NCBI GenBank assembly: GCA_017465905.1
Contig: JAFTVE010000009.1
Span: forward strand, 1-64,000
Direction: 5' to 3'
Length of the DNA stretch: 64,000 nucleotides
Origin: Bacteroidaceae bacterium
Lineage (GTDB): Bacteria; Bacteroidota; Bacteroidia; Bacteroidales; Bacteroidaceae
Part shown: one piece after another, positions 19,506 through 61,298 of the stretch
Position numbering within the stretch: the stretch's first letter is position 1
Layout of the letters: each line of letters begins with the position of its first letter
The notes under the pieces: model-generated
Seen by the model: the letters and a program-made list of their open reading frames with translations, nothing else
What the model was told of the DNA's origin: nothing
Database searches by the model: none
Translations under genes and position numbers: made by a program

Positions 19506-19513
19506 CAAAGGAA
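19506..19513 (-). promoter_or_regulatory. -7 box (TTCCTTTG) of the barrel operon
   Basis: TTCCTTTG on the minus strand, with a TTGG -33 element 20 bp upstream, lies 41 nt before the ATG at 19464. The 11-bp repeat array at 19545-19584 lies immediately upstream. Confidence 0.65.
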
Positions 19514-19544
19514 CGCATAATCCATAGCCACACCAACGAAAAAA

Positions 19545-19584
19545 CGTGGCAAAAGCGTGGCACGAGCGTGACATTTGCGTGACA
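19545..19584 (-). promoter_or_regulatory. Four heptamer direct repeats, 11-bp period (TGYCACG class)
   Basis: On the plus strand the heptamers CGTGGCA (19545, 19556) and CGTGACA (19567, 19578) are spaced exactly 11 bp apart. On the coding strand they read TGTCACG, TGTCACG, TGCCACG, TGCCACG with 4-bp spacers. The proximal heptamer ends 31 bp upstream of the -7 box, just above the -33. Probable activator binding array. Confidence 0.7.
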
Positions 19585-19664
19585 CGAAGGATTCTGACTT
19601 ATTTGATAGTGTAATCATTATAACTTTTTGTCGATAATGCTTGTTAGATAAAAAATCAAATGAG

Positions 19665-19672
19665 TATCTTTG
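19665..19672 (+). promoter_or_regulatory. -7 box (TATCTTTG) of the vapD pair
   Basis: TATCTTTG with a TTG 21 bp upstream, 24 nt before the small ORF at 19697. It is divergent from the barrel operon promoter. Confidence 0.6.
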
Positions 19673-19696
19673 CGATGAAATAATAGAGGAACGAAT

Positions 19697-19876
19697 ATGG
19701 AACCGAAAGTAGGAGATAGAATGAAAGCCAATCCTCAGCTCACAGGCCTGGACAATTGGGTTGAGGGGCAGGTCATCGACGTAGAGCACAATCCCTTTAC
19801 AGGATTGGTGATCTCAATCAAAGACCAATTGGGACGTATATTCTTTGGTCAGGTGAAATATTTCCAAATGGTTTGA
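19697..19876 (+). CDS. Small protein upstream of vapD, possible antitoxin
   Basis: A 59-residue ORF (MEPKVGDRMKANPQLTGLD...) that ends KYFQMV and stops 4 bp before the vapD-like start, so the two are translationally close. The Gly/Val-rich pattern GDRMKANP...WVEGQVIDVEHNPF...LVISIKDQLGRIFFGQ looks like a small beta-barrel (SH3/KOW-like) fold, but I cannot name a family. VapD toxins in Haemophilus pair with a small upstream antitoxin, VapX, so a similar role is inferred from position only. Confidence 0.6.
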   Translation: MEPKVGDRMKANPQLTGLDNWVEGQVIDVEHNPFTGLVISIKDQLGRIFFGQVKYFQMV

Positions 19877-19880
19877 TAGA

Positions 19881-20158
19881 ATGTTTGCCATAGCCTTTGA
19901 TATGAATGTCGGTGATCTCCGTAGCAACTACGGGGAACCATACAATAATGCTTATTATGAAATCAAGACGCTGATGCGCAAATACGATTTCTATAATACG
20001 CAAGGTAGCGTATACCTCACCCAGCACAACGACATGTCGTATCTCTTCCGTGCTATTACGGCCTTGAAGCAGGTGGCTTGGTTTAGAGAATCTGTTCGTG
20101 ACATACGCGCTTCCGTGTAGAAGACTGGTCAGACTTCACCTCCTTTGTGAAAGAATAA
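19881..20158 (+). pseudogene. vapD: VapD-like endoribonuclease toxin, frameshifted near the C-terminus
   Basis: The intact frame 19881-20120 gives 79 residues beginning MFAIAFDMNVGDLRSNYGEP, with the VapD hallmarks YDFYNTQGSVYL and ALKQVAWFRESVRDIRA. VapD proteins are Cas2-fold RNases of about 90-95 residues. Here the frame ends at TAG right after IRAS, but the frame offset by one base continues as RVEDWSDFTSFVKE and stops at 20158, which is the expected VapD C-terminus. One base is missing at about 20111-20114 (GCTTCCGTG instead of GCTTTCCGTG). So this is a recent frameshift, a sequence error, or a truncated product that keeps the core fold. Confidence 0.75.
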
Positions 20159-20188
20159 CACCGATGGAATCGGTGATTTTGCATCCTC

Positions 20189-20686
20189 CTCAGGTGACAA
20201 AAGTTTATTTTTGGGGTGGCAACCGTTAGGTCGACGCCCATAGGGGCTTAAGTCAATGGCAATGCTGCATGGCAGCAATGAAGGCGATGAAGAAACGCAA
20301 ACAATTTAAGTAATTAGCCAATTTTCCTTTGTCCAAATTATAGTTTTTCTTTGTCCAAACTGGAATTTGGAGCCTTGCAAACTGGAGTTTGGAACTGCCC
20401 AAATTGATTTATCATAGGCTTGACAAACTTTTGTCAAGCCTATGATAATTTTTTATCACACCGTTGACAATTTTTTATCACTGCTGTGATAATTTTTTGT
20501 CAAGCCTATGAAAAATCTTGACAAAACTTTTTCATGGGGTTTTTGCTTATGAAAATAGTCCGAGCTATCGTTACAGTCCTCTGCCAATATAAAGGTTGGT
20601 TTGCTTGGCAGAACTCAAATTCAGTTGACTCTGCTCTCGCTACACTACGCCACTGCCACCCCAAAAATAAACTTTTTCCACCTGCA
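20189..20686. mobile_element. MITE-like element, copy 1
   Basis: Bounded by inverted repeats of about 31 bp: left 20191-20221, right 20654-20684, sharing AAAAGTTTATTTTTGGGGTG (right end read as its complement). No ORF of a transposase. It encloses nine tandem 22-bp units (20329-20526). A second copy lies at 60818-61179. Just inside the left end is a dispersed repeat (20221-20259) containing GGTCGACGCCCATAGGGGC. Non-autonomous transposon-like element is the best description; the mobilising enzyme is unknown. Confidence 0.65.
20329..20526. repeat. Nine tandem 22-bp imperfect palindromes
   Basis: Units start at 20329, 20351, 20373, 20395, 20417, 20439, 20461, 20483 and 20505, each exactly 22 bp. 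Most have a 14-18 bp imperfect dyad core such as TCCAAACTGGAATTTGGA, TGACAAACTTTTGTCA, TGATAATTTTTTATCA and TGATAATTTTTTGTCA. The units vary in sequence but hold register, and the same order is found in copy 2. Confidence 0.75.
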
Positions 20687-20740
20687 GAAAGCCCCATTCA
20701 CACGTTCGGGACTCAAAAATCGCCGATTTCATCGGAGTTC

Positions 20741-20768
20741 TGCACTCTGCCAGGCCAAAAATAAAAAT
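20741..20768. repeat. 28-bp repeat beside MITE copy 1
   Basis: A 28-bp sequence containing CTGCCAGGCCAAAAATAAAA recurs at 23083-23110 with one mismatch. Its core resembles the MITE end (TGCCACCCCAAAAATAAA), so it may be a related or older end. It lies just past the end of the acyltransferase gene. Confidence 0.55.
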
Positions 20769-20771
20769 CGA

Positions 20772-21797
20772 TTACTCCTTATCCACCCCCATCACACCCA
20801 ACACCAACAGCCGTGCGACTCCATGGCGCCTGCTCCACCGCGCCAGCAAAAGACATTCAGTTGTAATGGCAACTCCACCAATGAACACTCCCCACACACC
20901 AAGCGAAGGGAGCAGGTGGCACACTCTGGAGATAAGGATGAATATCAATGTTTGGAAATAATATATACCTAAAGAGCTCTCCCCTGCATCCTTTACAAAT
21001 CTGATGACACGCTTGGCCGAGCATCTCTTATACACTCCGTACAGCAAGGGGAGAATCCATCCCAAGGCGAAGAAGGCTATCAACTGGCGCATTGCAGTGT
21101 GCAGCACACTGCCCAACATTCCCCAACTCCACACATCGGCAAGCAGCGTACGGGCGGCATATAGTGCACCGACATACAACACCAGCATACTTGCTGATAT
21201 TCTCATACGTCTCTTCCCTGCATATATCCGATTAAGGGTGTGCTTGCCCGTCATATACCCCACAACGAGGAACGGATAGAGAAACGTGTAACGTGCCGGG
21301 ATATAGCTGCTGTCGGGTATAAAGTATATCAAGACACCTGCCAACACATACATCCACACCTTGTCGCCCATACGTCGGATGAGCAGCAGCAACAACTGGT
21401 TGTAGAGCAATGCCCACAGGAACCAAAGATTGCCGACAATGGTACTGAACAAATCCTTCGCACATCCTATTATATCAAACGTTGGATGTACGGACCACTT
21501 GATAGCGAAGGCCAGCACGCCGAAGCTCAAAATGGGGAGTCCCAACTGCCGCAAGCGCCTCTTGGCCACTTCCAGCTCCGTCCGATGGGTCAATGTCTGC
21601 TGCAGGAGGTAACCGCTGACAGCCATGAACAGCGGCATATGGAACGTGTAGATAAACTTGAATATGGGATTGCAGTAGTATGCCCCTTGCAAGAAATACT
21701 CCGCGCCATAGCAGTATTGGATGGCATGTCCCACGAGCACCAATAGGATAGCCACTCCTTTGATGAAGTCAATATAATCATTTCTTTTCATATACAA
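20772..21797 (-). CDS. Acyltransferase family 3 membrane protein (copy A)
   Basis: A 341-residue integral membrane O-acyltransferase (acyltransferase 3/NolL-OatA membrane domain type) with about 10 TM segments. Hallmarks: N-terminal RNDYIDFIKGVAILLVLVGHAI with the conserved His in TM1, FIYTFHMPLFMAVSGYLL and FLWALLYNQLLLLLIRR. No C-terminal SGNH domain. Likely transfers acetyl or another acyl group to a cell-surface glycan. An in-frame ATG at 21791 (MKRNDY) is an equally good start. It begins 21 bp after the stop of the upstream paralog and is probably in one operon with it. The exact acceptor cannot be seen. Confidence 0.88.
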   Translation of the reverse strand: MYMKRNDYIDFIKGVAILLVLVGHAIQYCYGAEYFLQGAYYCNPIFKFIYTFHMPLFMAVSGYLLQQTLTHRTELEVAKRRLRQLGLPILSFGVLAFAIKWSVHPTFDIIGCAKDLFSTIVGNLWFLWALLYNQLLLLLIRRMGDKVWMYVLAGVLIYFIPDSSYIPARYTFLYPFLVVGYMTGKHTLNRIYAGKRRMRISASMLVLYVGALYAARTLLADVWSWGMLGSVLHTAMRQLIAFFALGWILPLLYGVYKRCSAKRVIRFVKDAGESSLGIYYFQTLIFILISRVCHLLPSLGVWGVFIGGVAITTECLLLARWSRRHGVARLLVLGVMGVDKE

Positions 21798-21818
21798 TCG
21801 AATTATTACAACCAGAAA

Positions 21819-22811
21819 TCATATCCCCACCCAAGCGTTTGGTACCCAACGAATACGGTCGGCAATCCAAGCGATAGAGTAGCTGACAAGGAATGAAAGT
21901 AGCGTAATTGCCAACGGACGTATCCATAGCGGACACCAGTCCCACACGTCAAGCATACAGAGCATCCCCACCAGCGGCACATGCACGAAATAGATGACAT
22001 AAGTGTAGCGCCCCGAGGAGGTGACAAACGATGTGAACCTGTCAGGAACTGCACACGACTTGAGGAGTAGGAACAAGCTGATTATGGCCAATGTATGCAC
22101 AAGTGCGGTATTGGCACCATTCATCATCCCCCACACATTGAGGATATAGGCCAGCACGAAGCCAACGAGCCCGAAGCGACGGTTGGCACGCTCATCGGTA
22201 AGATAGCGCACACAGTAGTGCCCACATAGGAAAAAGCCCATATACATGAAGGCCGAGGCATTATAATAATGGATAGAGCCAAACTGAGGATAGTAGACCC
22301 GCAGTGCGAGCCACGCAAACCAAAGCACCAGACCATATTGGGTGAGCCGCCTCCCACGAGGAGTAGAGAGAACATGCTGCATAAATGGAGTCAGCAGATA
22401 GAGCCCTATCAATACGAATATATACCAATACGACGGATTGATTTTGCCCGAGAGCAGATAGGGAACATAATGCAACAAAGCCTCCTTTGCGGAATGCACG
22501 TCAGTATACTTATGCATCACTGCCGAGATGATATAAACTAGTGTGCCCCACAGCAGATAGGGAACGAACAGGCGCTTTAGCCGTCGTGACAGGAATTGCG
22601 CTATCGGTAAGGGCTTGCCTCCGAGCATCAATGCTCCCGATAGCATAAAGAATAGCGGGACTCCCATCACCACCAGTTCTTGATAAATGTAGCGGACATC
22701 GCCGGCGACAGGCTCATCGAGTCGCAAGCCACTCCACGCATGCTGTGTGATGACCAGCAGTATGGCTGCCATGCGAATCAGATCAAGAAAAACGACACGT
22801 TGTGTTTTCAT
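21819..22811 (-). CDS. Acyltransferase family 3 membrane protein (copy B)
   Basis: 330 residues, about 10 TM segments, with the family signature RVVFLDLIRMAAILLVITQHAWSG (catalytic-type His in TM1) and the second block MGVPLFFMLSGALML. The frame is open to 22829, but a TAATTTTG promoter box occupies 22827-22834, so the ATG at 22811 (MKTQRVVF) is chosen. First gene of the acyltransferase pair; its promoter carries a four-heptamer array at 22867-22906. It is only distantly similar to copy A, so this is not a recent duplication. Role inferred: surface polysaccharide O-acylation. Confidence 0.87.
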   Translation of the reverse strand: MKTQRVVFLDLIRMAAILLVITQHAWSGLRLDEPVAGDVRYIYQELVVMGVPLFFMLSGALMLGGKPLPIAQFLSRRLKRLFVPYLLWGTLVYIISAVMHKYTDVHSAKEALLHYVPYLLSGKINPSYWYIFVLIGLYLLTPFMQHVLSTPRGRRLTQYGLVLWFAWLALRVYYPQFGSIHYYNASAFMYMGFFLCGHYCVRYLTDERANRRFGLVGFVLAYILNVWGMMNGANTALVHTLAIISLFLLLKSCAVPDRFTSFVTSSGRYTYVIYFVHVPLVGMLCMLDVWDWCPLWIRPLAITLLSFLVSYSIAWIADRIRWVPNAWVGI

Positions 22812-22826
22812 TTGTGCTTTTTCCGA

Positions 22827-22834
22827 CAAAATTA
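22827..22834 (-). promoter_or_regulatory. -7 box (TAATTTTG) of the acyltransferase pair
   Basis: TAATTTTG lies 15 nt upstream of the ATG at 22811. No clear -33 TTG is present at 19-21 bp, fitting dependence on an activator bound to the array upstream. Confidence 0.6.
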
Positions 22835-22866
22835 TAGGAACTTACTGAGTGCTGTCTGTACCAGGA

Positions 22867-22906
22867 TATTGCAATTACATTGCAGCGATATTGTAAATGT
22901 ATTGCA
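22867..22906 (-). promoter_or_regulatory. Four heptamer direct repeats, 11-bp period (TGCAATA class)
   Basis: Plus-strand heptamers TATTGCA (22867), CATTGCA (22878), TATTGTA (22889) and TATTGCA (22900) are spaced exactly 11 bp. On the coding strand they read TGCAATA, TACAATA, TGCAATG, TGCAATA. The proximal heptamer ends 32 bp upstream of the -7 box, the same geometry as the arrays at 19545 and 26849. Confidence 0.7.
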
Positions 22907-22909
22907 TGA

Positions 22910-22945
22910 GGGGCTGCACCGTAATTTAGTCCACGGTACAGCCCC
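22910..22945. terminator. Hairpin (GGGGCTG / CAGCCCC)
   Basis: A stem with GGGGCTG and ACCGT on one arm and ACGGT and CAGCCCC on the other, single-base bulges, 10-nt loop. It sits between the thioredoxin lipoprotein gene and the acyltransferase promoter array. Confidence 0.5.
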
Positions 22946-22976
22946 ATTCAGGTCAATTGTATAGTTCTAAAATAAT

Positions 22977-23006
22977 GTGCCCCACCAGACTTGTCTGATG
23001 GGGCAC
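22977..23006. terminator. Hairpin (GTGCCCCA / TGGGGCAC)
   Basis: Strong stem GTGCCCCA plus CAGAC paired with the complementary arm around a short loop. Downstream on the minus strand is an A/T-rich stretch (ATTATTTTAG). Probable terminator for the genes ending at 23136. Confidence 0.6.
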
Positions 23007-23082
23007 GGGTTGTATGCAGATATAAAAAACTCAATCGCTACATAAATACATATTGCATGCCTACATATCGGTGGCGCTCCGT

Positions 23083-23110
23083 TGCACTTTGCCAGGCCAA
23101 AAATAAAAAT
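23083..23110. repeat. 28-bp repeat, second copy
   Basis: One mismatch to 20741-20768, same orientation, again just beyond the 3' end of a minus-strand gene. It is 25 bp from the end of the thioredoxin lipoprotein gene. Confidence 0.55.
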
Positions 23111-23135
23111 AGTTTGCACGGAATAAGGAGGGCTT

Positions 23136-23864
23136 TTATCTCTTTATCGCTTTCAATATATTCTCTCTTTGAACTGGAGATGTGCCCACCTCTATGAGGA
23201 TGATTCTGCCTTCCTCATCAAGCACCACAGTAAAAGGATAGCTGCTTACACCCACTTGTCCTATGAGTTCTTCATCGTTGACCAACTGATGAAAACGGAA
23301 CTTGTTGTCCTTGACAACCTGTTTGATTTTCTCGGCACTTTCGAATGTCACAGCCAGGAACGTCACATCACGGTGCTTTCTTACCCAACGGCCCAGCTCT
23401 GGCATTTCCTTTATGCAAGGGCCGCACCCAGTAAACCAGAAGTTGATGACCGCCTTCCTGCCCATCAAGTCCTTGTTGCTCCACTCACGGCCATTCATGT
23501 CGCGAAGAGTAAAGCGCGGAAACGTATCTCCTACACTGACATTCATCGTTGGAGCCAAGATGGTAGTATGAAACCTACGGGCATTAGCAGCCCTTTTCAA
23601 TATGTCTTCCCCATTCTTTATCTTTTCTGTCGGGATAGCATATTTCTTTGCGGCTTCTGACAATTGCGGGTAATCAAGTATGGTGATTTTGCCCCAAACG
23701 GAATCTTCCAACATCGCCATCTCTACAACGCTTCCAGGGGGTACCTGCTCAGGCTTCTCGTAGAAGAACATGCCATTGGTAATCTTTAATGTTTTGTGTT
23801 GAGTTGAACACGATGAACAAAGCACCGCCACGGCAAGGGCGAGAAGTAGTTTGGTTGGTTTCAT
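23136..23864 (-). CDS. TlpA-like thioredoxin-fold lipoprotein (short)
   Basis: 242 residues. Lipoprotein-type signal MKPTKLLLALAVAVLCSSC, a variable N-terminal part to about 110, then a thioredoxin/AhpC-TSA-like domain with the redox motif FTGCGPCIKEMPEL (Cys147-Cys150), the cis-Pro region VGVSSYPFTVVLDEEGRI and a C-terminal helix. Expected periplasmic or outer-membrane-anchored thiol-disulfide reductase. The N-terminal leader is almost the same as in two other genes here. It lies 165 bp downstream of the longer TlpA-like gene; I see no clear TAnnTTTG in that gap, so co-transcription is likely. Confidence 0.85.
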   Translation of the reverse strand: MKPTKLLLALAVAVLCSSCSTQHKTLKITNGMFFYEKPEQVPPGSVVEMAMLEDSVWGKITILDYPQLSEAAKKYAIPTEKIKNGEDILKRAANARRFHTTILAPTMNVSVGDTFPRFTLRDMNGREWSNKDLMGRKAVINFWFTGCGPCIKEMPELGRWVRKHRDVTFLAVTFESAEKIKQVVKDNKFRFHQLVNDEELIGQVGVSSYPFTVVLDEEGRIILIEVGTSPVQRENILKAIKR

Positions 23865-24029
23865 TGTATTGGTTATTGTATGTTGTTACACGATTTATTT
23901 ATGGCTAATTTATGGGCAATTCACGAGAATTCGTGTCTAAGAAAATAAAGGCATGAATTGCCATGTAATTGGCCACGAAACGAGTTCGCCGCCCGCAGGG
24001 GCCAAAGGCAATTTCAAGGAATTATTGTT

Positions 24030-25247
24030 TTATTCCCATCCCAATTCTTCAGTACTTCGGCTAATCATCCCTTTAGCATACCCTCTATCTACTTTGCGTA
24101 CAATATGGTTTTCGTCAAGGTAGAAGAATACAGGTACTCCGCGATTAGTACCGACATAAGCGTTTAGCACAGCATCTTCGCCAAGCAGCATCGGGTAGCT
24201 TATCTTGTGATGGGCAGCATAGTCGCGCAGACTCTGTGCACTTTTTCCCCATGATTCAATAGATACTATGTTATAGCGTTTGCTCAGCTCTACCAGTTCG
24301 GGATAGGCCTGTGCGCAAGGACCACAGCCAAGGCCCGTCAGGTTGATAATCGTAGGTTTGCCACGCAAGGAGCTTAGCGCCACCGACTTCCCGTTCATAT
24401 CTTTCAATGTCCACTCAGGAGCGGCCTTGCCTATAAGCTGTTCGTTCTGCCGGGCCTCTTTGTCCATATCCCTCCTGCCGACATAATGTACCTTGTAGCT
24501 CCCATGCAGAAGTATGAGGTCTGTTGCAACGATGGGAGAGGTCGTAACCTCCTCACTCCATTCTGCATGATGGCAAGTGACATCCTGCACGTTATGGCTC
24601 ATCTCCCTCAAATATCTATAAGGCATAGCATCTCCCTTGCGAATCCATAGCGTGTAGTAGGAGTAAGCATCCTCCTCGCTGAGGGCAAAAGGGTTCTCTG
24701 GCATCTTGTAGGCACGTCCGAAGAACTCCACCTGCCTGTCTTCGTAGATGGAGAGCTTATAGATAAAGTCTTCATCCGTTTCCTCCACGTCAAGGTTGAT
24801 ACTGTCTGTGGTAGTCAGCATATAACGGATGAGACTCTTTACATAGCTGAAGAAGGGGGGATGATACATGCGGAACGGGAGTGCCTGACTCTTTGCATCC
24901 AGGAAGTCCTCTACAACTATCCGCTTCTCGTCGTGATTGAAAGAGGCGAGATTTATACCGTCGTATACACTGAATATCCAGCCATCCTCACCGTAGCGTA
25001 GGGCTGATGCTCCGATAGTCGTATCTTGTGGATTGTCTTGTTCTACAAACCTATTGCGTCGGATGCTGCTCCAATCCTTCTCATAAGGCGCCTTCACCTT
25101 CTCTTCTATCTCGTATCCTGCCACCTTGATACGTTCAACCGTCTCTAACGCATGCTTGAGGCAATCTTCCGATTGTTGCTTCTTCGGTGTACACGCCCCC
25201 AGCAGCACCGCTGCGGCAAGGGCAAGGAATAGTTTGGTTGGTTTCAT
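24030..25247 (-). CDS. TlpA-like thioredoxin-fold lipoprotein (long)
   Basis: 405 residues from the ATG at 25247. Signal MKPTKLFLALAAAVLLGACTPKK with lipobox LGAC (Cys19); an unassigned domain at about 25-275 rich in charged and aromatic residues; then a thioredoxin domain with LTGLGCGPCAQAYPEL (Cys308-Cys311) and the cis-Pro region NRGVPVFFYLDENH. The frame is open to 25358, but the promoter box at 25284-25291 excludes that start. Periplasmic disulfide exchange is the likely activity; the long N-terminal domain may bind the partner. It is followed by a shorter TlpA-like gene and preceded by the regulator gene at 26753. Confidence 0.83.
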   Translation of the reverse strand: MKPTKLFLALAAAVLLGACTPKKQQSEDCLKHALETVERIKVAGYEIEEKVKAPYEKDWSSIRRNRFVEQDNPQDTTIGASALRYGEDGWIFSVYDGINLASFNHDEKRIVVEDFLDAKSQALPFRMYHPPFFSYVKSLIRYMLTTTDSINLDVEETDEDFIYKLSIYEDRQVEFFGRAYKMPENPFALSEEDAYSYYTLWIRKGDAMPYRYLREMSHNVQDVTCHHAEWSEEVTTSPIVATDLILLHGSYKVHYVGRRDMDKEARQNEQLIGKAAPEWTLKDMNGKSVALSSLRGKPTIINLTGLGCGPCAQAYPELVELSKRYNIVSIESWGKSAQSLRDYAAHHKISYPMLLGEDAVLNAYVGTNRGVPVFFYLDENHIVRKVDRGYAKGMISRSTEELGWE

Positions 25248-25283
25248 TGTGGTTTGATTATTAATCCTTCTTGTAACGACAAG

Positions 25284-25291
25284 CAAAGGAA
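25284..25291 (-). promoter_or_regulatory. -7 box (TTCCTTTG) of the TlpA-like genes
   Basis: TTCCTTTG with TTG 20 bp upstream on the minus strand, 36 nt before the ATG at 25247. Confidence 0.55.
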
Positions 25292-25421
25292 AGCAATAAA
25301 TCCCGTTCGTACAACTTAACGTTACAAAAAGTGAAACGAGATGCCCAACTTTAACCATTATTATTAGTTGTAGATGAGGGCCACGTCCAATGGTCAGGTG
25401 GTCTCACCCTGAACCATGCAC

Positions 25422-26753
25422 CTATCCCTTACCGCCGAATATCACATCGCAGAAGTCGGTGGGGAGTTTCTTCTTGATGCGGTCTTTGCGCTTGCGGATG
25501 GTGCCGGGAGTGGTGTGCCCGATATAGGCAATGACATTGTTGCTATAGCCAAGGTAGGTGCAGAAGCAGCAGATGAGCTCTTGGTCGTTGAGTTCGGCGT
25601 TCTCGATGAGCGTGGCACAAGCCTCCTTGAATGCGGCGAACAGCGAACTCTCCACGTCGCGTGTGGCCTCGAAGGCCATATCGTAGAGCTCCTTCTCCTT
25701 TATCTGCATCGTGTTGAGGTCGTCGTAGCTGGTGGTGTGTTCGAAGGCACGGCGACCATCGGCAAGGCTGCGGCGCAGTATCAGTGACTCGGGCAAGGCA
25801 AAGGTTTCGCCACGCTCCTCTTCGGTGAGTTGGGGCTGAGGTTCCTCGGTCTCCTGCTGTGGAGTGTCCCCATATTCGTATACCCTCGGCGGCCTCTTCT
25901 TATTCTTATATATATACCACGCGGTGAAGAGCATGGCGATGATAAGCAGCACGATTATTCTGATTGCAAAAGGCGATAGGCCTGATGGAGCCTCTTTTGT
26001 TGTGGCTTGCTGAGTGGCAGCAGGAGTCTTTGCTCCCGGGCATGCGCAGTCCTTAGATTTCTTGGACTGGGCGATGGTGCGCTCCATCTCGGCCTTGAAG
26101 GCCGAGGCCGACTGAGGAGAATGAACGTCGAGGCCACGAATCTGTTCCAAGGGGATGACAGCTGCCTCCTCGAAGCGCTGTTGGTAATAGGCTGCCGAGT
26201 CGGGGATTTGTCGGTTATGATAGATGTGCTTCAGCACGTAAGCCACGATATAGTCCGTCCAGTTCTGTCGCACGGGGAAGCTCATTGCCTTGTGGCAATA
26301 GTGGATGGCCGAGTCAATCTCGCCGTAGTGCCACAGGTCGTCGCCCTTGTGGGCATAGTATTGTGCCAAGTTGATGTCATTGCCTACGCCAGCCTTGGCA
26401 TACTCGATGCAGCGGTTGATATACATCAGCGCCTTGGCATAGTTGGTACGTCCGTAAGCACCGTACGACTCAATATTATGCAACATATAAAGTGCCTTTA
26501 CGCGTAGGGAATCGGTGGAATCATCGCGCACCACCACATTGGCAAAGTGGTATTCGGCTTCAGACAGGCTCCGCTTGTCCTTCTTGTCCTTATTAAACCT
26601 ACCGTGTGCACGATAGGCGAGTTCCAGCTCCTGATAGGCAGTGAGCTCGATATACACCTTCTTGGGGGCTTGCACCTCCTCCTTATCCTTCTTGCTGCAG
26701 GCCGCAAGACCAACTAAGGTCATCGACAACACGATATACAAGATACGCTTCAT
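25422..26753 (-). CDS. Membrane-spanning regulator: lipoprotein signal, TPR-like sensor, TM, cytoplasmic HTH (A)
   Basis: 443 residues. Signal MKRILYIVLSMTLVGLAAC with lipobox LAAC (Cys19); helical, TPR-like periplasmic part at about 35-230 (ALMYINRCIEYAK, AQYYAHKGDDLWHYGEIDSAIHYC); one TM at about 261-281; then an acidic linker and a cytoplasmic C-terminal domain at about 385-435 (ELICCFCTYLGYSNNVIAYIGHTTPGTIRKRKDRIKKKLP) that looks like a LuxR/sigma-region-4-type helix-turn-helix. It is homologous in its C-terminus to the protein at 58342. Its own promoter has three heptamer repeats of the same class as the barrel operon. Role inferred: a one-component envelope-sensing transcription regulator. 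I cannot name an established family member. Confidence 0.72.
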   Translation of the reverse strand: MKRILYIVLSMTLVGLAACSKKDKEEVQAPKKVYIELTAYQELELAYRAHGRFNKDKKDKRSLSEAEYHFANVVVRDDSTDSLRVKALYMLHNIESYGAYGRTNYAKALMYINRCIEYAKAGVGNDINLAQYYAHKGDDLWHYGEIDSAIHYCHKAMSFPVRQNWTDYIVAYVLKHIYHNRQIPDSAAYYQQRFEEAAVIPLEQIRGLDVHSPQSASAFKAEMERTIAQSKKSKDCACPGAKTPAATQQATTKEAPSGLSPFAIRIIVLLIIAMLFTAWYIYKNKKRPPRVYEYGDTPQQETEEPQPQLTEEERGETFALPESLILRRSLADGRRAFEHTTSYDDLNTMQIKEKELYDMAFEATRDVESSLFAAFKEACATLIENAELNDQELICCFCTYLGYSNNVIAYIGHTTPGTIRKRKDRIKKKLPTDFCDVIFGGKG

Positions 26754-26808
26754 ATATAAGAATCTGTTTTTAAGGTTATCGCCAACATGTTTTTGTAGTT
26801 ACTCTGTG

Positions 26809-26816
26809 CAAATGTA
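26809..26816 (-). promoter_or_regulatory. -7 box (TACATTTG) of regulator A
   Basis: TACATTTG with a TTGG -33 element 20 bp upstream, 55 nt before the ATG at 26753. The -33/-7 pair is spaced as in the barrel operon promoter. Confidence 0.65.
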
Positions 26817-26848
26817 CTGTTTTCATCGCTACGCACCAAGAAAACAGG

Positions 26849-26877
26849 TGTGACAAAAGCGTGGCAAAAACGTGGCA
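26849..26877 (-). promoter_or_regulatory. Three heptamer direct repeats, 11-bp period (TGYCACR class)
   Basis: Plus-strand heptamers TGTGACA (26849), CGTGGCA (26860) and CGTGGCA (26871), exactly 11 bp apart. The coding strand reads TGCCACG, TGCCACG, TGTCACA. The proximal copy ends 32 bp upstream of the -7 box. Same heptamer class as at 19545-19584, suggesting a shared regulator and possible autoregulation. Confidence 0.7.
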
Positions 26878-26924
26878 AGGGAGAAACCACCCCTATTTCC
26901 TTTCGTTCCGTGCAAGCAAAACAG

Positions 26925-26968
26925 AAACCGCCTTTTCACGGAAAAGTCCGATGGAAAGGCGGTTTTTT
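26925..26968. terminator. Rho-independent terminator of the beta-galactosidase region
   Basis: AAACCGCCTTTTC pairs with GAAAGGCGGTTT around a 16-nt loop and is followed by a T-run on the plus strand and A/T on the minus. Pieces of the same sequence (GATGAAAAGGCGGTTTTT) recur at 35069 and, more weakly, at 39080. Confidence 0.65.
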
Positions 26969-26988
26969 GCTATTTCAATACATCTGTA

Positions 26989-34198: not shown

Positions 34199-34200
34199 CC

Positions 34201-49890: not shown

Positions 49891-49930
49891 ATAAGAGACG
49901 TGCTATCTAGTATGATGGCACGTCTCTTAT
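49891..49930. terminator. Bidirectional terminator
   Basis: ATAAGAGACGTGC and GCACGTCTCTTAT form a perfect 13-bp stem between convergent genes (SDR + and GH43-like -), with T's on the right side. Confidence 0.75.
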
Positions 49931-49948
49931 TTTCATATAACAGTTCGT

Positions 49949-51028: not shown

Positions 51029-51042
51029 AATGCTTTTGATTA

Positions 51043-52467: not shown

Positions 52468-52498
52468 AAGTTGTGATTGGTAACTGATAATACCTTTA

Positions 52499-53467: not shown

Positions 53468-53502
53468 ATTGTGTTGTCGTGATTGTTTGTTCGTTGCAAT
53501 TC

Positions 53503-53982: not shown

Positions 53983-54018
53983 TCCGATACGGTATTGACA
54001 TATCAACTTCTAAGAGCA

Positions 54019-54026
54019 CAAAGATA
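54019..54026 (-). promoter_or_regulatory. -7 box (TATCTTTG) of argR-argC
   Basis: Minus-strand box 36 nt upstream of the chosen argR ATG. Confidence 0.6.
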
Positions 54027-54129
54027 AAAGTTTATTTATAGATATGCAAAAATGTAATAATTTTTCAAATTATTTGGTTCAAAAGACTGAAAAAACGCGA
54101 AAAATCATGGCAGAACAAGAAAAACAAAT

Positions 54130-54137
54130 TATATTTG
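54130..54137 (+). promoter_or_regulatory. -7 box (TATATTTG) of rhaBAT
   Basis: TATATTTG 41 nt upstream of the rhaB ATG; divergent to argR. Confidence 0.55.
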
Positions 54138-54178
54138 CTTGCTAAAACATTAAATCTAATCACCTAAACGTAGATTAT

Positions 54179-55651: not shown

Positions 55652-55689
55652 ACCAAGAATGAATAACAACTTTTAAAAATAGAATCAAT

Positions 55690-56943
55690 ATGAAAGAAGA
55701 ACTTATTTTGAAATCGTATGAGATTGCAAAGGAGCGCTACGCAGCTCTTGGTATTGACACAGACAAGGTGTTGGAACAGTTGCAGGACTTCCACCTCAGC
55801 ATGCACTGCTGGCAGGCCGATGATGTGAAGGGCTTTGAAGTACAGGCAGGTGCTCTCTCTGGCGGTATCCAGTCTACCGGCGACTTCCCCGGTGCAGCAC
55901 GCAACATCGACGAGCTCCGTCAGGATGTGCTGAAGGCAAAGTCACTCATCCCCGGTACTCACCGTCTGAACCTCCACGAGATCTATGGCGACTTCCAGGG
56001 CAAGGTAGTAGACCGCGACGAAGTATCTGTAGAGCATTTCCAGAGCTGGATTGACTGGGGTAAGGAGCACGACACCAAGCTCGACTTCAACTCCACCTCT
56101 TTCTCACATCCGAAGAGCGGTAACCTCTCACTCTCTAACCCCGACAAGGGCATCCGCGACTTCTGGATCGAGCATAGCAAGCGCTGCCGCGACATCGCCA
56201 ATGCGATGGGTGAGGCACAGGGCGACCCCTGTATCATGAACCTCTGGGTACACGACGGCTGCAAGGACGTAAGCGTAAACCACGCTCTCTACCGCAACTT
56301 GCTGAAGCAGTCACTCGATGAGATCTTCGCCAAGGAACAGCCCATGATGAAGGATTGTATCGAGGGTAAGGTATTCGGTATCGGTCTCGAGAGCTTCACC
56401 GTAGGTTCACACGATTTCTACACCGCATACGCAGCCAAGAACGACAAGATCCTGACCATCGACACCGGCCACTATCATCCCACCGAGAGCCCTGCCGACA
56501 AGGTGAGCGCCGTACTTCCCTTCGTGAAGGAACTCATGCTCCACGTATCACGTCCCGTACGTTGGGATTCTGACCACGTGACCATCATGGACGACCCCAC
56601 ACAGGAACTCTTCTTCGAAATCGTACGTGCCGGTGCTCTTGACCGCGTACACTACGGCCTCGACTTCTTCGACGGCTCAATCAACCGTATAGGTGCTTAT
56701 GTTATCGGTTCACGCTCGGCACAGAAGTGCATGCTCCGCGCATTGCTCGAACCGAAGGAGTTGCTCGCTCAGTACGAACTCGCAGGCGAAGGTTACAAGC
56801 TCCTCGGCGTTATGGAAGAGCAGAAGGCTATGCCTTGGCAGGCAGTATACGACATGTTCTGCTTGAAGAACAATGTGCCCGTAGGCGACGCCTTCATCGC
56901 AGAGATTGCCAAGTACGAGGCTGAGGTAACAAGCAAGAGATAA
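55690..56943 (+). CDS. rhaA: L-rhamnose isomerase
   Basis: 417-residue TIM-barrel metalloenzyme that converts L-rhamnose to L-rhamnulose. LNLHEIYGDF, NLWVHDGCKD, GLESFTVGSHDFYTAYAAKNDK and DTGHYHPTE carry the metal and substrate ligands. 108 bp to rhaT, bridged by a perfect 16-bp inverted repeat. Confidence 0.96.
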   Translation: MKEELILKSYEIAKERYAALGIDTDKVLEQLQDFHLSMHCWQADDVKGFEVQAGALSGGIQSTGDFPGAARNIDELRQDVLKAKSLIPGTHRLNLHEIYGDFQGKVVDRDEVSVEHFQSWIDWGKEHDTKLDFNSTSFSHPKSGNLSLSNPDKGIRDFWIEHSKRCRDIANAMGEAQGDPCIMNLWVHDGCKDVSVNHALYRNLLKQSLDEIFAKEQPMMKDCIEGKVFGIGLESFTVGSHDFYTAYAAKNDKILTIDTGHYHPTESPADKVSAVLPFVKELMLHVSRPVRWDSDHVTIMDDPTQELFFEIVRAGALDRVHYGLDFFDGSINRIGAYVIGSRSAQKCMLRALLEPKELLAQYELAGEGYKLLGVMEEQKAMPWQAVYDMFCLKNNVPVGDAFIAEIAKYEAEVTSKR

Positions 56944-56960
56944 ATGGAATTCTAAACTGT

Positions 56961-57032
56961 GAATTATGAATTATGAGCGGAGACGACACCGAATCATCTG
57001 CGGGTGGCTCTCTGTTTCATAATTCATAATTC
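56961..57032. repeat. 16-bp perfect inverted repeat between rhaA and rhaT
   Basis: GAATTATGAATTATGA at 56961-56976 and its exact complement at 57017-57032, 40-nt spacer. Likely a hairpin in the rha transcript (mRNA processing or a dispersed repeat). Confidence 0.6.
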
Positions 57033-57051
57033 AATTTTCATCATTATTCAC

Positions 57052-58089
57052 ATGAACATTCTAATCGGACTATTAATCATTGCCGTCGGCGCTTTCTGCC
57101 AGTCGAGTTGCTACGTCCCCATCAATAAGATCAAGAAATGGTCGTGGGAGTCGTACTGGATTGTGCAGGGCGTGTTCGCATGGCTTGTATTCCCGCTCTT
57201 GGGTGCGCTCCTCGCTGTGCCCAGCGGACATAGCTTGGGCGAGCTGTTCGGTGCAGCCCCCTCGTTCAACATCTGGATGACCGTGCTCTTCGGCGTGCTG
57301 TGGGGCGTGGGTGGTCTCACCTTCGGTCTCTCGATGCGCTACCTCGGCGTTGCGCTGGGCCAGTCTATTGCCCTAGGTACTTGCGCAGGTCTCGGCACCA
57401 TCATGGGCCCCGTACTGCTCAATGCCTTCTTCCCCGAACTCAACGCCCTGCAGTCGCTCACCTTCGCCGTTATCATGGGCGTGGTGGTGACCCTGCTCGG
57501 TATCTCTATTATTGGTATTGCCGGTTCCATGAAGTCGGCCTCACTCTCCGAGGAGGAGAAGAAGGCGGCTGTCAAGGACTTCAACTTCCCCAAGGGCCTT
57601 GCCATCGCACTGTTGGCAGGTTTCATGAGTGGCTGCTTCAACGTAGGCCTTGAGTTTGGTAAGGATATCCACTTCGGTGAGCTCACCGACCCCATGTTCC
57701 GCACCCTGCCCGCTACGTTGCTCGTCACCATGGGTGGTTTCGTCACCAATGCCATCTACTGCTTCTATCAGAATCAGAAGAACAAGACCTGGAGCGACTA
57801 TAAGATGGGCTCCGTATGGGGCAACAACCTCCTATTCTGCGCCCTGGCCGGTATCCTCTGGTACAGCCAGTTCTTCGGTCTCTCCCTGGGTCGTAGCTTC
57901 TTCGAGGCTGGTGGCACTATGGACACCCTCGCCTTCTGCATCCTGATGGCCTTGAACGTCACCTTCTCCAACGTGTGGGGTATCATCCTCAAGGAGTGGA
58001 AGGGTTGCTCACGCAAGACCATCGTGGTGCTCATCATCGGCATCGTGGTACTGATAGCCTCATCATTCCTGCCGCAGTTCATCGGATAA
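57052..58089 (+). CDS. rhaT: L-rhamnose/H+ symporter
   Basis: 345-residue inner membrane transporter with 10 TM segments of the DMT/RhaT group. MNILIGLLIIAVGAFCQSSCYVPINKIKKWSWE is the RhaT start. Third gene of rhaB-rhaA-rhaT. Neither rhaD (aldolase) nor an AraC-type regulator follows, so the rest of the pathway is elsewhere. Confidence 0.93.
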   Translation: MNILIGLLIIAVGAFCQSSCYVPINKIKKWSWESYWIVQGVFAWLVFPLLGALLAVPSGHSLGELFGAAPSFNIWMTVLFGVLWGVGGLTFGLSMRYLGVALGQSIALGTCAGLGTIMGPVLLNAFFPELNALQSLTFAVIMGVVVTLLGISIIGIAGSMKSASLSEEEKKAAVKDFNFPKGLAIALLAGFMSGCFNVGLEFGKDIHFGELTDPMFRTLPATLLVTMGGFVTNAIYCFYQNQKNKTWSDYKMGSVWGNNLLFCALAGILWYSQFFGLSLGRSFFEAGGTMDTLAFCILMALNVTFSNVWGIILKEWKGCSRKTIVVLIIGIVVLIASSFLPQFIG

Positions 58090-58118
58090 GGAATCGGTCA
58101 AAAAAGATAATCCAATCA

Positions 58119-58152
58119 AGAGGGTGCGTCAACTGGCGCACCCTCTTTTTCT
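58119..58152 (+). terminator. Rho-independent terminator of rhaBAT
   Basis: AGAGGGTGCG pairs with CGCACCCTCT, 8-nt loop, followed by a T-run. Confidence 0.8.
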
Positions 58153-58251
58153 TCATCCGCACCATTCTTAAAGGAATGCAATAGCTGCTTGGCACATGGA
58201 GAGCATGCTTTATCCTCTTCACAAACGGTTGAATCTATTAGCATTACGAAT

Positions 58252-58269
58252 TGTAAGTTTTTTGTAAGT
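58252..58269 (+). promoter_or_regulatory. Two heptamer direct repeats, 11-bp period (TGTAAGT class)
   Basis: TGTAAGT at 58252 and 58263, exactly 11 bp apart. The second ends 32 bp upstream of the -7 box TATATTTG (58302-58309). Confidence 0.6.
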
Positions 58270-58301
58270 CCCTTTTTGATGCTATATTGTGCGATAAAGT
58301 G

Positions 58302-58309
58302 TATATTTG
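58302..58309 (+). promoter_or_regulatory. -7 box (TATATTTG) of regulator B
   Basis: TAnnTTTG box 32 nt upstream of the ATG at 58342; no strong -33 at 19-21 bp. Confidence 0.6.
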
Positions 58310-58341
58310 CATTGCATTAACAAGACAGAACTTTACAGACG

Positions 58342-59640
58342 ATGAATACACCCACAAGATATCTCCTATTATTATTGGTGTCGATGGTATCGATGTCGGC
58401 TTTTGCTTGGCTCGATGGCGACAGCTTCTATCCCCGCTTGGCACGCGAAGACTGGCTTACAGCTCAAGACAAGGAGACGCTGCTCGATGATATGTCGCAC
58501 AATGCCGACATCCTTGTCATCGACGGCGTGGAGTACATGACAGCCTACTCGCCACTCGAACTTATCCGCGGCCAGAGACGTTATTATGAAATGTATGACG
58601 GACTGCTCTCTTCGTGGGAAGGGCTCAACTTCACCGCTTTCTGGGGCGATGAGGCCAATAAGCAACGTAACTCTTGGAAGTGTCGCCTGCAAGTCGTTGA
58701 TGATAGCCTTTGCTTGATGGAGATAAAGTATATAGAATGGCTGCGTATCCATGATTCGAAAGCGCATAAGGGTCGCTTTGCCGACACTCTTGCCGTGCCT
58801 CAAGATGCGATATGGATGCGTATGGAGGAGTTTACCGACTGCCGTTTCGTTGACGGGCGCATGTTCCTGCCCATTGTTTCGGGCACCGTGTTTGCCAAGC
58901 AGCGCAACCTCGCTCCGCGCCCCAAAGAGTGGAGTTCTGCCAACAAGAGCCCCGAAGACATGCGCACCTATCTGCGCTGGGTCGAGGAGCCTGTATATAG
59001 AATAGTCTTCGAGGAGGGACGCATGGTGTCGATGGAAGCGATGAACGAACCGATTACTGCCGAGGAGCATCGCGCCTTTGTCATTCGTACGGCACTGACA
59101 GCCATAGTCATCGTACTGTTGGTGGCTATCCTCTTCGTGCTACGTGACTATCGCCGCAAGCGCCACTATCTGCATATGTACGAGGCATTGCAGAAGAATC
59201 AGGCACAGCTCGTTACCGCCCAGGAGTTGTCGGAGGAGGAACCCGAGAAGCGACCCTTGACACGCGAGGAGGTCGTGGCCCTGTATCGTGACAACTTTGC
59301 CCTCAGCCGCGAGCAGTTCCGTCTCAGTGGTTGGCCGCAACGGTTGGAGAAGATGAGCGCCACGCTTCAGGCAGATATTCCGATGCTGGGTGCCGATGAG
59401 CGCGGGCGCCTGTCAAAGGCGCTCGACGAGTGCTTCATACAGGTGAATGTGAACCTGCGCAGCGAAGGCCGCCTGACCAACGATGATGTGCGCTGCTGCT
59501 TGCTGGCCATGCTCGGGTGCCCGCTTTCGGTGATAGGAGCCTGCCTCGGCAGTTCGCCCGAAGCAGTACAGACCCGCAAAAGCCGCCTCAAGGACAAACT
59601 GCCGAAGGATGTGTTTGAGTGGGTGTTTGCGAAGAATTGA
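58342..59640 (+). CDS. Membrane-spanning regulator: signal peptide, periplasmic domain, TM, cytoplasmic HTH (B)
   Basis: 432 residues. Signal peptide to about 22 (MNTPTRYLLLLLVSMVSMSAFA), a periplasmic domain with no recognised family (about 23-248), TM at about 250-268, a cytoplasmic helical linker, and a C-terminal domain at about 379-425 (DDVRCCLLAMLGCPLSVIGACLGSSPEAVQTRKSRLKDKLP) that aligns with the C-terminus of the protein at 26753: CC, LG, VI, RKxRxKxKLP and D are common. The sensor halves are unrelated. Followed by a lipoprotein gene after 23 bp, likely co-transcribed. Own promoter has the TGTAAGT pair. Confidence 0.72.
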   Translation: MNTPTRYLLLLLVSMVSMSAFAWLDGDSFYPRLAREDWLTAQDKETLLDDMSHNADILVIDGVEYMTAYSPLELIRGQRRYYEMYDGLLSSWEGLNFTAFWGDEANKQRNSWKCRLQVVDDSLCLMEIKYIEWLRIHDSKAHKGRFADTLAVPQDAIWMRMEEFTDCRFVDGRMFLPIVSGTVFAKQRNLAPRPKEWSSANKSPEDMRTYLRWVEEPVYRIVFEEGRMVSMEAMNEPITAEEHRAFVIRTALTAIVIVLLVAILFVLRDYRRKRHYLHMYEALQKNQAQLVTAQELSEEEPEKRPLTREEVVALYRDNFALSREQFRLSGWPQRLEKMSATLQADIPMLGADERGRLSKALDECFIQVNVNLRSEGRLTNDDVRCCLLAMLGCPLSVIGACLGSSPEAVQTRKSRLKDKLPKDVFEWVFAKN

Positions 59641-59663
59641 AATAAACATATAACTACATAAAG

Positions 59664-60794
59664 ATGAAAAAAACATTATTCTGCATCGCCGCACTCGCAT
59701 TGGCACTCAGCATGGCCAGCTGCGGCAACAAGGAAGGCGCAGCCAAGGAAGGTGCCAAGAAGGAAAATGCGAAGAAGGCAACCGCCAAGAAGGCCACTTC
59801 GAAGAAGAAGAAAAGCCTGCTGATGCCCAACGCCAGCGGCCTCCCCTACGAGATGTTGGTAGTGATGGACGATGACCAATGGGACCGTCCCTTGGGCCGT
59901 GCCGTGTTCAACGTACTCGACAGCGACGTGCCTGGACTTCCCCAGTCGGAGCGCTCGTTCCGCATCTCACGCGTTGAGCCCGACGGCTTCAACAGCAACA
60001 TGTTCAAGATTATGCGCAACGTCATCAAGGTGGATATTCAGAACATCTACACCCAGCCCAAGTTCAAGTTTGCCCGCAACGTGTATTCCTATCCGCAGAT
60101 GATCATGACCCTGCAGGCACCCGACGAGGAGAGCCTGACCGAATACATCAACAACAACCAGCAGTCCATCATCGACTTCTTCACCAAGGCCGAGATGAAC
60201 CGCGAGATTGAGAACCTCCGCGAGCGCCACAATCCCGAAGTGTCGCGCCTGGCCGAGGAGATACTCGATGTCGACATATGGGTGCCTTGGGAGCTCAACA
60301 AGTTCAAGAAGGGCAAGGATTTCCTGTGGGCCTCGACGAACGTGGGTAAGAAGGATATGAACCTCGTGCTCTATTCCTACCCCTACACCGATAAGAACAC
60401 CTTTACGCTTGACTACTTCCTCCAGAAGCGCGACTCGGTGATGAAAGCCAATATTCCCGGTGGCCCCAAGGGAAGCTACATGACTACCAATCACGACTAT
60501 GTATACGTGGAGGATGGCACCGTGCGTGGCAAGTATGCACAGATTGCCCGTGGCCTCTGGCGCATCCAGGGAGACCGTATGGGAGGCCCTTTCGTGTCGC
60601 ACTCCCGAGTGGATGAGGCGAATGGCCGTGTTGTCGTAGCCGAAGCCTTCATCTACGCTCCCGAATCGCTCAAGCGCGACCTCCTGCGCCGTATGGAAGC
60701 AGCCCTCTACACCTTGCAGCTTCCCCAGCAGGAGGGCGTGAACAATATCTCCTACGAACTGGATGAAATTGTAATAGAGCCGGAGATAAAGTAA
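59664..60794 (+). CDS. DUF4837-like lipoprotein
   Basis: 376 residues. Lipoprotein signal MKKTLFCIAALALALSMASC (Cys20), a Lys/Ala-rich linker at about 22-50 (KKATAKKATSKKKK), then a conserved region that matches Bacteroidota DUF4837: LPYEMLVVMDDDQWDRPLGRAVFNVLDSDVPGLPQSERSFRISR. Function not known. Probably in one transcript with the regulator at 58342; its 3' end is close to MITE copy 2. Confidence 0.8.
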   Translation: MKKTLFCIAALALALSMASCGNKEGAAKEGAKKENAKKATAKKATSKKKKSLLMPNASGLPYEMLVVMDDDQWDRPLGRAVFNVLDSDVPGLPQSERSFRISRVEPDGFNSNMFKIMRNVIKVDIQNIYTQPKFKFARNVYSYPQMIMTLQAPDEESLTEYINNNQQSIIDFFTKAEMNREIENLRERHNPEVSRLAEEILDVDIWVPWELNKFKKGKDFLWASTNVGKKDMNLVLYSYPYTDKNTFTLDYFLQKRDSVMKANIPGGPKGSYMTTNHDYVYVEDGTVRGKYAQIARGLWRIQGDRMGGPFVSHSRVDEANGRVVVAEAFIYAPESLKRDLLRRMEAALYTLQLPQQEGVNNISYELDEIVIEPEIK

Positions 60795-60817
60795 TGTTAT
60801 CTCTGCTACGCCTTCTC

Positions 60818-61179
60818 TGCAGGTGAAAAAAGTTTATTTTTGGGGTGGCAGTGGCAGAGAGCCGCTTCAGTTTTTCTTTATCCAAACTGGAGTTTGGGAC
60901 TATGCAAATTACTGTTTGGAGCCTTACAAACTGCAGTTTTTAACTAACAAAAACGAATTTTCACAGGCTTGATAAAATATTTTCAAGCCTGTGAAAATTT
61001 TTTGTCATCATAGTGATAATTTTTTGTCAAGCCTATGAAAAAACTTGACAAAACTGTTTCGTAGGGAAAAACGAAGTGAAATTACCGGGAAAACACTATA
61101 GACTTCAAGGATAAAGTCTGACTCAACTCCAGCTTTTCCATGCCACTGCCACCCCAAAAATAAACTTTTTTCACCTGCA
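60818..61179. mobile_element. MITE-like element, copy 2
   Basis: 362 bp with perfect 39-bp terminal inverted repeats (60818-60856 and 61141-61179; outer end TGCAGGTGAAAAAAGTTTAT). No ORF of a transposase. Contains the same array of 22-bp units as copy 1 (20189-20686). The right-hand flank also shows similarity to the right flank of copy 1 (GATTTCATCG), so the unit may be larger than the TIRs. It begins 24 bp after the DUF4837-like gene. Confidence 0.7.
60856..61053. repeat. Nine 22-bp units in MITE copy 2
   Basis: Units start at 60856, 60878, 60900, 60922, 60944, 60966, 60988, 61010 and 61032. They are the same order and register as in copy 1, with imperfect dyad cores such as TCCAAACTGGAGTTTGGGA and TGATAATTTTTTGTCA. 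Confidence 0.7.
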
Positions 61180-61241
61180 AAAGGGTTTCTTTTGCCTATC
61201 AGATATGCAAAAAATGCAGATTTCATCGTAGTCTGGCAAAT

Positions 61242-61259
61242 TGTAACTATTTTGTAAGT
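61242..61259 (+). promoter_or_regulatory. Two heptamer direct repeats, 11-bp period (TGTAAST class)
   Basis: TGTAACT at 61242 and TGTAAGT at 61253. The second ends 31 bp upstream of the -7 box. Confidence 0.6.
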
Positions 61260-61290
61260 CGCAATAGTAGGATATTATTACGCGAATGTA

Positions 61291-61298
61291 TATCTTTG
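61291..61298 (+). promoter_or_regulatory. -7 box (TATCTTTG) of the DUF4488-like gene
   Basis: Canonical box 46 nt before the ATG. No TTG at the -33 position, which fits activator dependence. Confidence 0.65.

Follow-up and report, generated by a model that had tools for sequence, protein, structure and literature searches.

The DNA analyzed here is a stretch of 64,000 nucleotides from a Bacteroidaceae bacterium (assembly GCA_017465905.1, contig JAFTVE010000009.1, positions 1 to 64,000 of the forward strand), hereafter the window. Five of its promoters, at 19464(-), 22811(-), 26753(-), 58342(+) and 61345(+), carry tandem heptamers that we interpret as operators. The first-pass annotation had counted 4, 4, 3, 2 and 2 heptamers at an exact period of 11 bp, ending 31, 32, 32, 32 and 31 bp above the -7 box, respectively. 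The copy numbers were confirmed on a recount, and the period and the distances, measured from the last base of the array to the first base of the box, hold at all five promoters. The -7 and -33 promoter consensus follows the accessible parts of two published studies (PMC7366714 and PMC12632263). Four of the boxes are of the type TAnnTTTG as claimed, whereas at 19464 the box TTCCTTTG is one base off the consensus. The heptamer word differs between promoters while the geometry stays constant, but there are three word classes and not five. The operators and boxes are as follows:

19545..19584, minus strand: A-class operator with four heptamers (TGTCACG TGTCACG TGCCACG TGCCACG) at period 11, 31 bp above the box
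19506..19513, minus strand: -7 box TTCCTTTG, non-consensus
22867..22906, minus strand: C-class operator with four heptamers (TGCAATA TACAATA TGCAATG TGCAATA), 32 bp above the box
22827..22834, minus strand: -7 box TAATTTTG
26849..26877, minus strand: A-class operator with three heptamers (TGCCACG TGCCACG TGTCACA), 32 bp above the box
26809..26816, minus strand: -7 box TACATTTG
58252..58269, plus strand: B-class operator with two copies of TGTAAGT, 32 bp above the box
58302..58309, plus strand: -7 box TATATTTG
61242..61259, plus strand: B-class operator (TGTAACT TGTAAGT), 31 bp above the box
61291..61298, plus strand: -7 box TATCTTTG

When aligned on the box, the copies at all five promoters share a single frame, TG followed by five bases, in which only the second heptamer at 22811 (TACAATA) is degenerate. 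The class A word, TGYCACG and once TGTCACA, is found at 19464(-) and 26753(-), the class B word, TGTAAG or TGTAAC, at 58342(+) and 61345(+), and the class C word, TGCAATA, at 22811(-). The other promoter boxes of the window are free of such arrays, as had been noted earlier: among 25 perfect TAnnTTTG boxes on both strands of the noncoding DNA, 4 have an array at the given distance. The array promoters also have a T-rich stretch with some G about 21-28 bp above the box, which is stronger than in 62 sample promoters; a conserved -33 TTTG was sought at the array promoters and no clear TTTG was seen. The non-consensus box TTCCTTTG recurs at promoters of barrel protein genes in the related genomes G002, G011 and G013 and at one such promoter on contig C48.

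For a statistical assessment, 31 noncoding stretches (6068 bp) were delimited in the window, with one spurious open reading frame over the 19464 promoter set aside. Heptamer pairs at period 11 with at least 6/7 identical bases were found at 47 positions, as compared to a mean of 11.7 and a maximum of 33 in 300 dinucleotide shuffles; identical (7/7) pairs at 9 positions, against a shuffle maximum of 6; and triples at 9, against a maximum of 1. Each count thus lies above all 300 shuffles, although positions inside one array overlap and the counts are therefore not independent. Pairs at period 8 (48) and period 22 (103) were as frequent as or more frequent than those at period 11, the only period for which shuffles were made. 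Tandem Repeats Finder reported local arrays of 8, 16 and 22 bp in the window, and we take the excess at periods 8 and 22 to be largely due to such local tandem repeats. An intergenic 8/16-bp tandem repeat, AAACTTAC, at 12603-12671 is a likely source of the period-8 and period-16 signal. An element resembling miniature inverted-repeat transposable elements is present in two intergenic copies, at window positions 20200-20690 and 60830-61175. Its ends are inverted (by eye, similar to CTGCAGGTGAAAAAAGTTTATTTTTGGGGTGGCA), and inside are units of about 22 bp around GTCAAGCCTATGA; an Rfam scan of the window gave no match.

Two of the five array-bearing genes in the window code for the same kind of protein:

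25422..26753, minus strand: predicted A-class regulator, with a lipoprotein-like signal (by eye), an exported part, a membrane helix at about residues 255-282 (by hydropathy) and a C-terminal LuxR/GerE-like helix-turn-helix
58342..59640, plus strand: predicted B-class regulator, with a different exported part, a membrane helix at about residues 243-271 (by hydropathy) and a C-terminal helix-turn-helix

The C-terminal parts of the two proteins are homologous (E=7e-11 in a single comparison), and the same comparison gave no such match for the remainder. The N-terminal parts in the family, judged by eye to be exported, are TPR-like by eye, or of other kinds. A profile built from five C-terminal domains gave 17 matches in the 2.84-Mb genome, which is about 80% complete, and matched 14 of 15 genomes of the same genus, as compared to none of 10 genomes of other families (E<=1e-12). 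Searches in Pfam and NCBIfam gave no convincing family for the two full-length window regulators, and a receiver domain was not among their Pfam matches (E<=10). For a profile of 15 C-terminal domains the best solved relative was the C-terminal stretch of EvgA (E=0.0026). Individually, two of these 15 domains were matched by GerE of Pfam (best E=1.4e-4) and eight by NF053779 of NCBIfam, the BT3442 family (best E=2.4e-12). The winged-helix domain Trans_reg_C of OmpR-type regulators (PF00486) was not among the 17 Pfam families that they matched (E<=0.5), and neither the 15 domains nor the two window regulators gave a Pfam match to an OmpR-like winged helix with a BTAD domain.

To follow the arrays beyond the window, 78 members of the family were examined, 16 of the 17 from this genome and 62 of the 75 from other genomes of the genus, after a fragment of 71 amino acids (C48:212278) had been dropped. 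The count of own promoters used 75 of these members, leaving out two that are truncated and one of 114 amino acids. A period-11 pair located 30-34 bp above a perfect box was found at the own promoter of 32 of the 75 members (7/7 identical in 21), as compared to 0, 0, 3, 1, 0 and 0 members at periods 8, 9, 10, 12, 13 and 14. Promoters of other genes, as a check, had such pairs in 5 of 140 cases and 7/7 pairs in none; these were genes with at least 100 bp upstream, taken from the first parts of 20 contigs of the same genome (356 kb in all) on which there were no family or pattern matches. At periods 12, 10 and 9 the same promoters gave 7, 4 and 3 pairs, with which the 5 at period 11 are in line. 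When the promoter of the next gene was also considered, 46 of the 78 members were associated with an array (10 of the 16 from this genome and, over 12 relative genomes, 36 of the 62 others). One of these arrays, at G013:C30, was dropped as spurious since its in-register copies are only 4/7 alike, so that 51 arrays at 45 regulators remain. They end 31 bp above the box in 15 cases and 32 bp in 36, in a search with a permitted range of 30-35 bp and a frame choice that favored TG. Distant homologs, from other families of the order, were identified in 39 of 98 other genomes with high completeness. Among the 42 of 72 such matches that were examined, own-promoter arrays were found in 2 and next-gene arrays in 1, none of them 7/7, while period 14 gave one 7/7 next-gene pair. 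This is the background level, and we therefore claim the operator system for this genus only.

The words themselves are diverse. Up to eight are seen at the ten array-bearing regulators of this genome, two of them less regular (C48:5406 and C8:86702) and another, TGTCACT, one base from class A. Across the genus they include TGTCACG, TGTCACT, TGTCTTG, TGTAAGT, TGTAACT and TGCAATA, and further TGTTACG, TGTTGCG, TGCAGCG, TGTAGCG, TGGAACG, TGTTGGA and TGAGAAA. In one tally of the family, five members that are truncated or whose helix-turn-helix is not at the end were left out together with duplicates, so that 69 remained. The more two helix-turn-helix sequences differ, the more their words tend to differ in the five variable bases (correlation of the distances r=0.61 over 34 distinct sequences, reached in 0 of 5000 permutations), and this also holds when sequences are clustered at 70% identity (r=0.40 for 14 clusters, 14 of 5000). 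With the clusters, the half that holds the recognition helix gave r=0.38 on its own (46 of 5000) and the other half r=0.23 (176 of 5000); before the spurious array was dropped, all seven bases had given r=0.69 (n=46, 0 of 5000) and 0.31 (n=15, 61 of 20000). In these sequence comparisons, the five variable bases after TG follow the helix-turn-helix of the regulator. Shared descent of the promoters is not the sole explanation of this link, because unrelated genes share one word.

Such sharing is evident in pattern searches of this genome. Pairs of TGCAAT occur 11 times at 7 places, with none for the reversed-pattern control, four of the places being around a regulator on contig C4 and one at window position 22868, in the promoter of an acyltransferase gene. 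The promoter of the C4 regulator itself carries the TGCAATA word at the same distance from its box, and the C-class regulator that acts on 22811 is predicted to be encoded elsewhere in the genome, at G000:C4. Pairs of TGYCAC, 16 at 11 places (control 0), precede among others three paralogous regulators and four operons or genes of probable barrel proteins with 959-1003 amino acids. There are 7 pairs of TTGTAA (control 2), 6 of TGTTAC at 4 places (control 1) and 2 of TGCAGC (control 0). A TGTTACG pair, which is the word of a regulator on C11, is located just past the end of the window (G000:C44:64387-64403).

We consider it likely that the arrays serve as operators for one-component activators that are tethered to the membrane, regulate their own genes and form an expanded family, in which the heptamers make up a modular code. 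We infer that these proteins bind the arrays directly, with one protomer on each heptamer, that they signal from the membrane, and that they activate rather than repress. In each regulator, an exported N-terminal sensor would detect an envelope signal and be joined by a single membrane helix to a LuxR/GerE-like helix-turn-helix in the cytoplasm. Each helix-turn-helix would read a single heptamer, that is TG and the five variable bases. Two to four or more protomers could then occupy the same face of the DNA in head-to-tail order, each a helix turn from the next, with a spacer rich in T. With 31 or 32 bp between the array and the -7 box, the protomer nearest the box would be placed just upstream of -33, from where it could touch the RNA polymerase and activate; this position of the array, which does not cover the core promoter, fits the site of an activator. 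Many members may control their own gene, the next gene, or both. Thus, the product of 25422-26753 may read TGYCACG, a word shared with two paralogs, at its own promoter and that of the 19464 operon, the product of 58342-59640 may read TGTAAG/C at its own promoter and that of 61345, and the third member, on C4, may read TGCAATA at 22811. Two suggestions made from the window alone, that one protein family binds head-to-tail on one DNA face above the -33 and that several specificity classes lie side by side in one locus, are supported by these data as interpretations. We also lean toward the broader hypothesis that a LuxR/GerE-like domain on membrane-tethered proteins took up the head-to-tail reading known from PhoB and the SARPs, and that one genus multiplied it into many parallel lines from sensor to promoter that each use a particular five-letter word behind the fixed TG, ten of the array-bearing regulators being found in this genome.

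Several observations weigh against this interpretation. No array was found in the searched windows of 33 of the 78 members, some of which are truncated, possibly start inside operons or may have an imperfect box, while the remainder is unexplained. Arrays are also located at 20 of the 166 non-family genes in the regulator loci; 13 of these genes are in loci with a next-gene array and may in part be targets. The background may be understated, since the sample contigs were picked without family or pattern matches, and the counts across genomes are not independent because the relatives' genomes are related and many are incomplete; the safer figures are the cluster test and the count within this single genome. 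The cluster test, for its part, is based on 14 clusters only, TGTCACG and TGCAGCG are each found with two different clusters, and some pattern matches, such as C5:1583, have no visible promoter. The assignment of the C-terminal domain as LuxR/GerE-like is drawn from weak profile matches, and one of the 15 domains was matched by the sigma-70 ECF model (E=9.4e-4). NarL/FixJ-LuxR regulators are soluble proteins that for the most part bind as dimers to inverted repeats. The hydropathy script found an inner membrane helix in 71 of the 78 members. Finally, L001, a strong OmpR-type gene, has a 6/7 period-11 pair near its start, without a perfect box.

The most serious competing explanation is that the family binds the arrays as repressors, which keep their own genes and the targets off until a signal is received. 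Autoregulation is often negative, and we would give this a minor but real chance. However, the core promoter stays uncovered with arrays that stop 31-32 bp short of the -7 box, and the A-class promoters of barrel genes were found with the weakened box TTCCTTTG, which would suit activation. Much less probable, in our view, is that the membrane proteins only sense and signal while a separate soluble DNA-binding partner, encoded elsewhere, reads the arrays. Membrane-tethered regulators can act through partners, and sites of the A and B patterns are spread over several contigs; but the variable bases follow the helix-turn-helix of the family itself, and one common partner would give one word. An origin of the arrays by chance, or as noise from simple repeats in AT-rich promoters, can practically be dismissed. 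The single 6/7 pairs in the sample promoters and the high counts at periods 8 and 22 in the noncoding DNA speak for it, but the shuffles, the other periods at the own promoters and the sample promoters all fall far below what was observed. Furthermore, the words recur at unrelated genes, and the one array that was checked in a relative, the TGCAATA array in G007, has been kept with 2 of 43 bases changed, as compared to 10 of 25 in the stretch below it.

We also considered OmpR-family response regulators as the proteins that bind the arrays, which would then be operators of the PhoB/OmpR type; this precedent had been invoked by the first-pass annotation for the 7+4 repeats, and such a binder is improbable. 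In its favor, the PHO box described in PMC4415409 has the same geometry, and the E. coli motif CTGTCAT from that paper is similar to the A word TGTCACG. Of the four PF00486 matches over the cut-off in this genome, two are strong, with 85.6 and 67.1 bits, and two barely exceed it, with 29.4 and 28.6 bits; others may be missing from an assembly that is about 80% complete, and the pair near the start of L001 is consistent with this idea. Yet four matches stand against up to eight words in one genome, even when the two less regular words and the similarity of TGTCACT to TGTCACG are kept in mind. Moreover, the arrays are located at genes of the membrane family, whose C-terminal domains are without PF00486 and whose helix-turn-helix the words track, and the own promoters of the two strong OmpR-type genes both lack an array above a perfect box. 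OmpR/PhoB regulators were for these reasons rejected as the binders. The two matches just above the cut-off are in L003 730-1788 and L004 688-1791, which code for two similar proteins with one membrane helix, possibly another kind of membrane-bound regulator.

If the arrays are operators of the membrane-anchored family, the following window genes are candidate targets or neighbors of the regulators:

19033..19464, minus strand: 143-amino-acid protein with a signal peptide (by eye) and CarboxypepD_reg matches below the curated cut-off; first gene of its operon
16137..19016, minus strand: 959-amino-acid probable outer-membrane barrel protein, judged from its appearance, without a Pfam family
13198..16077, minus strand: 959-amino-acid paralog of the 16137..19016 product, 65% identical and probably in the same operon
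21819..22829, minus strand: acyltransferase-3 gene under the C operator, previously given a start at 22811
20772-21797: second acyltransferase-3 gene, behind the former
24030..25358, minus strand: AhpC/TSA protein downstream of the A regulator
23136-23864: another AhpC/TSA protein
59664..60794, plus strand: DUF4837 protein behind the B regulator, probably co-transcribed with it
61345..61782, plus strand: DUF4488 protein under the B operator

Homologs of the target genes often lack a visible array, which sets a limit on the interpretation; the script that scored them sometimes took another open reading frame, and many barrel genes lie behind other genes. Four-copy A-class arrays precede barrel homologs in G002, G011 and G013 (3 of 24 barrel loci). 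Of the 8 acyltransferase loci, 3 were scored with an array, one of them being that of the window; the C-class array of 22811 is kept in G013 and G007 and was not found at five more diverged homologous loci. For DUF4488 the count is likewise 3 of 8 loci with the window's own, a fourth match being the neighboring regulator gene. The B array of the 61345 type is also present at the ortholog in G007 and at a paralog on C12 and was not found by the script at other homologous loci, at some of which it took another open reading frame, and the B-class word of the 58342 promoter recurs at the orthologous regulator genes of G002, G007, G011 and G013. Paralogous probable barrel proteins of 920-1040 amino acids account for 12 match rows in this genome (G000:C44, C48, C30, C3, C54, C15, C7 and C8), some of them behind A-class operators and beside A-class regulators.

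On C12, the second gene behind a B-class operator codes for a homolog of the B regulator's sensor (34% identity over 191 residues, E=1e-29), a possible sign of product feedback; a comparison with the product of another B-operator gene gave nothing convincing. The gene at L030 5155-6192, which is the second behind a B-class operator, codes for a protein with the B-regulator sensor domain and, by eye, a TonB-like C-terminus.

Our findings assign candidate operators, regulators and targets together to a family that is barely described by Pfam and NCBIfam. With words that vary at five positions in step with the helix-turn-helix, the set could help to work out DNA specificity. It also predicts which genes, some of them for probable envelope proteins, each membrane sensor controls. 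If true, this would in effect be a readable protein-to-DNA code.

PhoB is a soluble, phosphorylated response regulator with a winged helix, and the SARPs are soluble Streptomyces proteins with an OmpR-like winged helix. Unlike PhoB, the regulators proposed here are membrane-anchored, have a LuxR/GerE-like domain and use several words per genome. The PHO box is nevertheless alike in its head-to-tail 7-bp units with 4-bp spacers at period 11 (in the accessible part of PMC4415409). Operators of SARPs such as PimR similarly have two or three heptamer direct repeats with 4-bp spacers and a sequence that depends on the regulator, but they usually overlap the -35 element (in the portion of PMC3367932 at hand). 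As to the proteins, the best solved relative of the C-terminal domains by profile is EvgA, from the NarL/FixJ-LuxR (GerE) group, and just over half of the domains compared match the BT3442 family, whereas the NF053779 model does not match the two full-length window regulators (E<=10; curated cut-off 940 bits). BT_3442 has been described as a multi-domain TPR protein, with no operator or regulatory role given in the consulted part of PMC2954219. The tandem TAACTGA heptamers of Beggiatoaceae and some Bacteroidetes were set aside as different, having been proposed as post-transcriptional sites near start codons in one strain (PMC4679880, in part). We recognized no description of an 11-bp tandem operator in Bacteroidota in the literature searched, from which subscription papers were mostly out of reach. 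Similar in plan, as compared by description, are the SusR-like regulators, also of Bacteroidota: SusR has maltose as its periplasmic ligand and a putative helix-turn-helix at the C-terminus, and direct-repeat motifs have been predicted whose similarity follows that of the regulators (PMC3878776, accessible sections). The SusR motif was predicted there as two sites 67 or 77 bp apart, whereas the arrays in this genus consist of two or more heptamers 11 bp apart.

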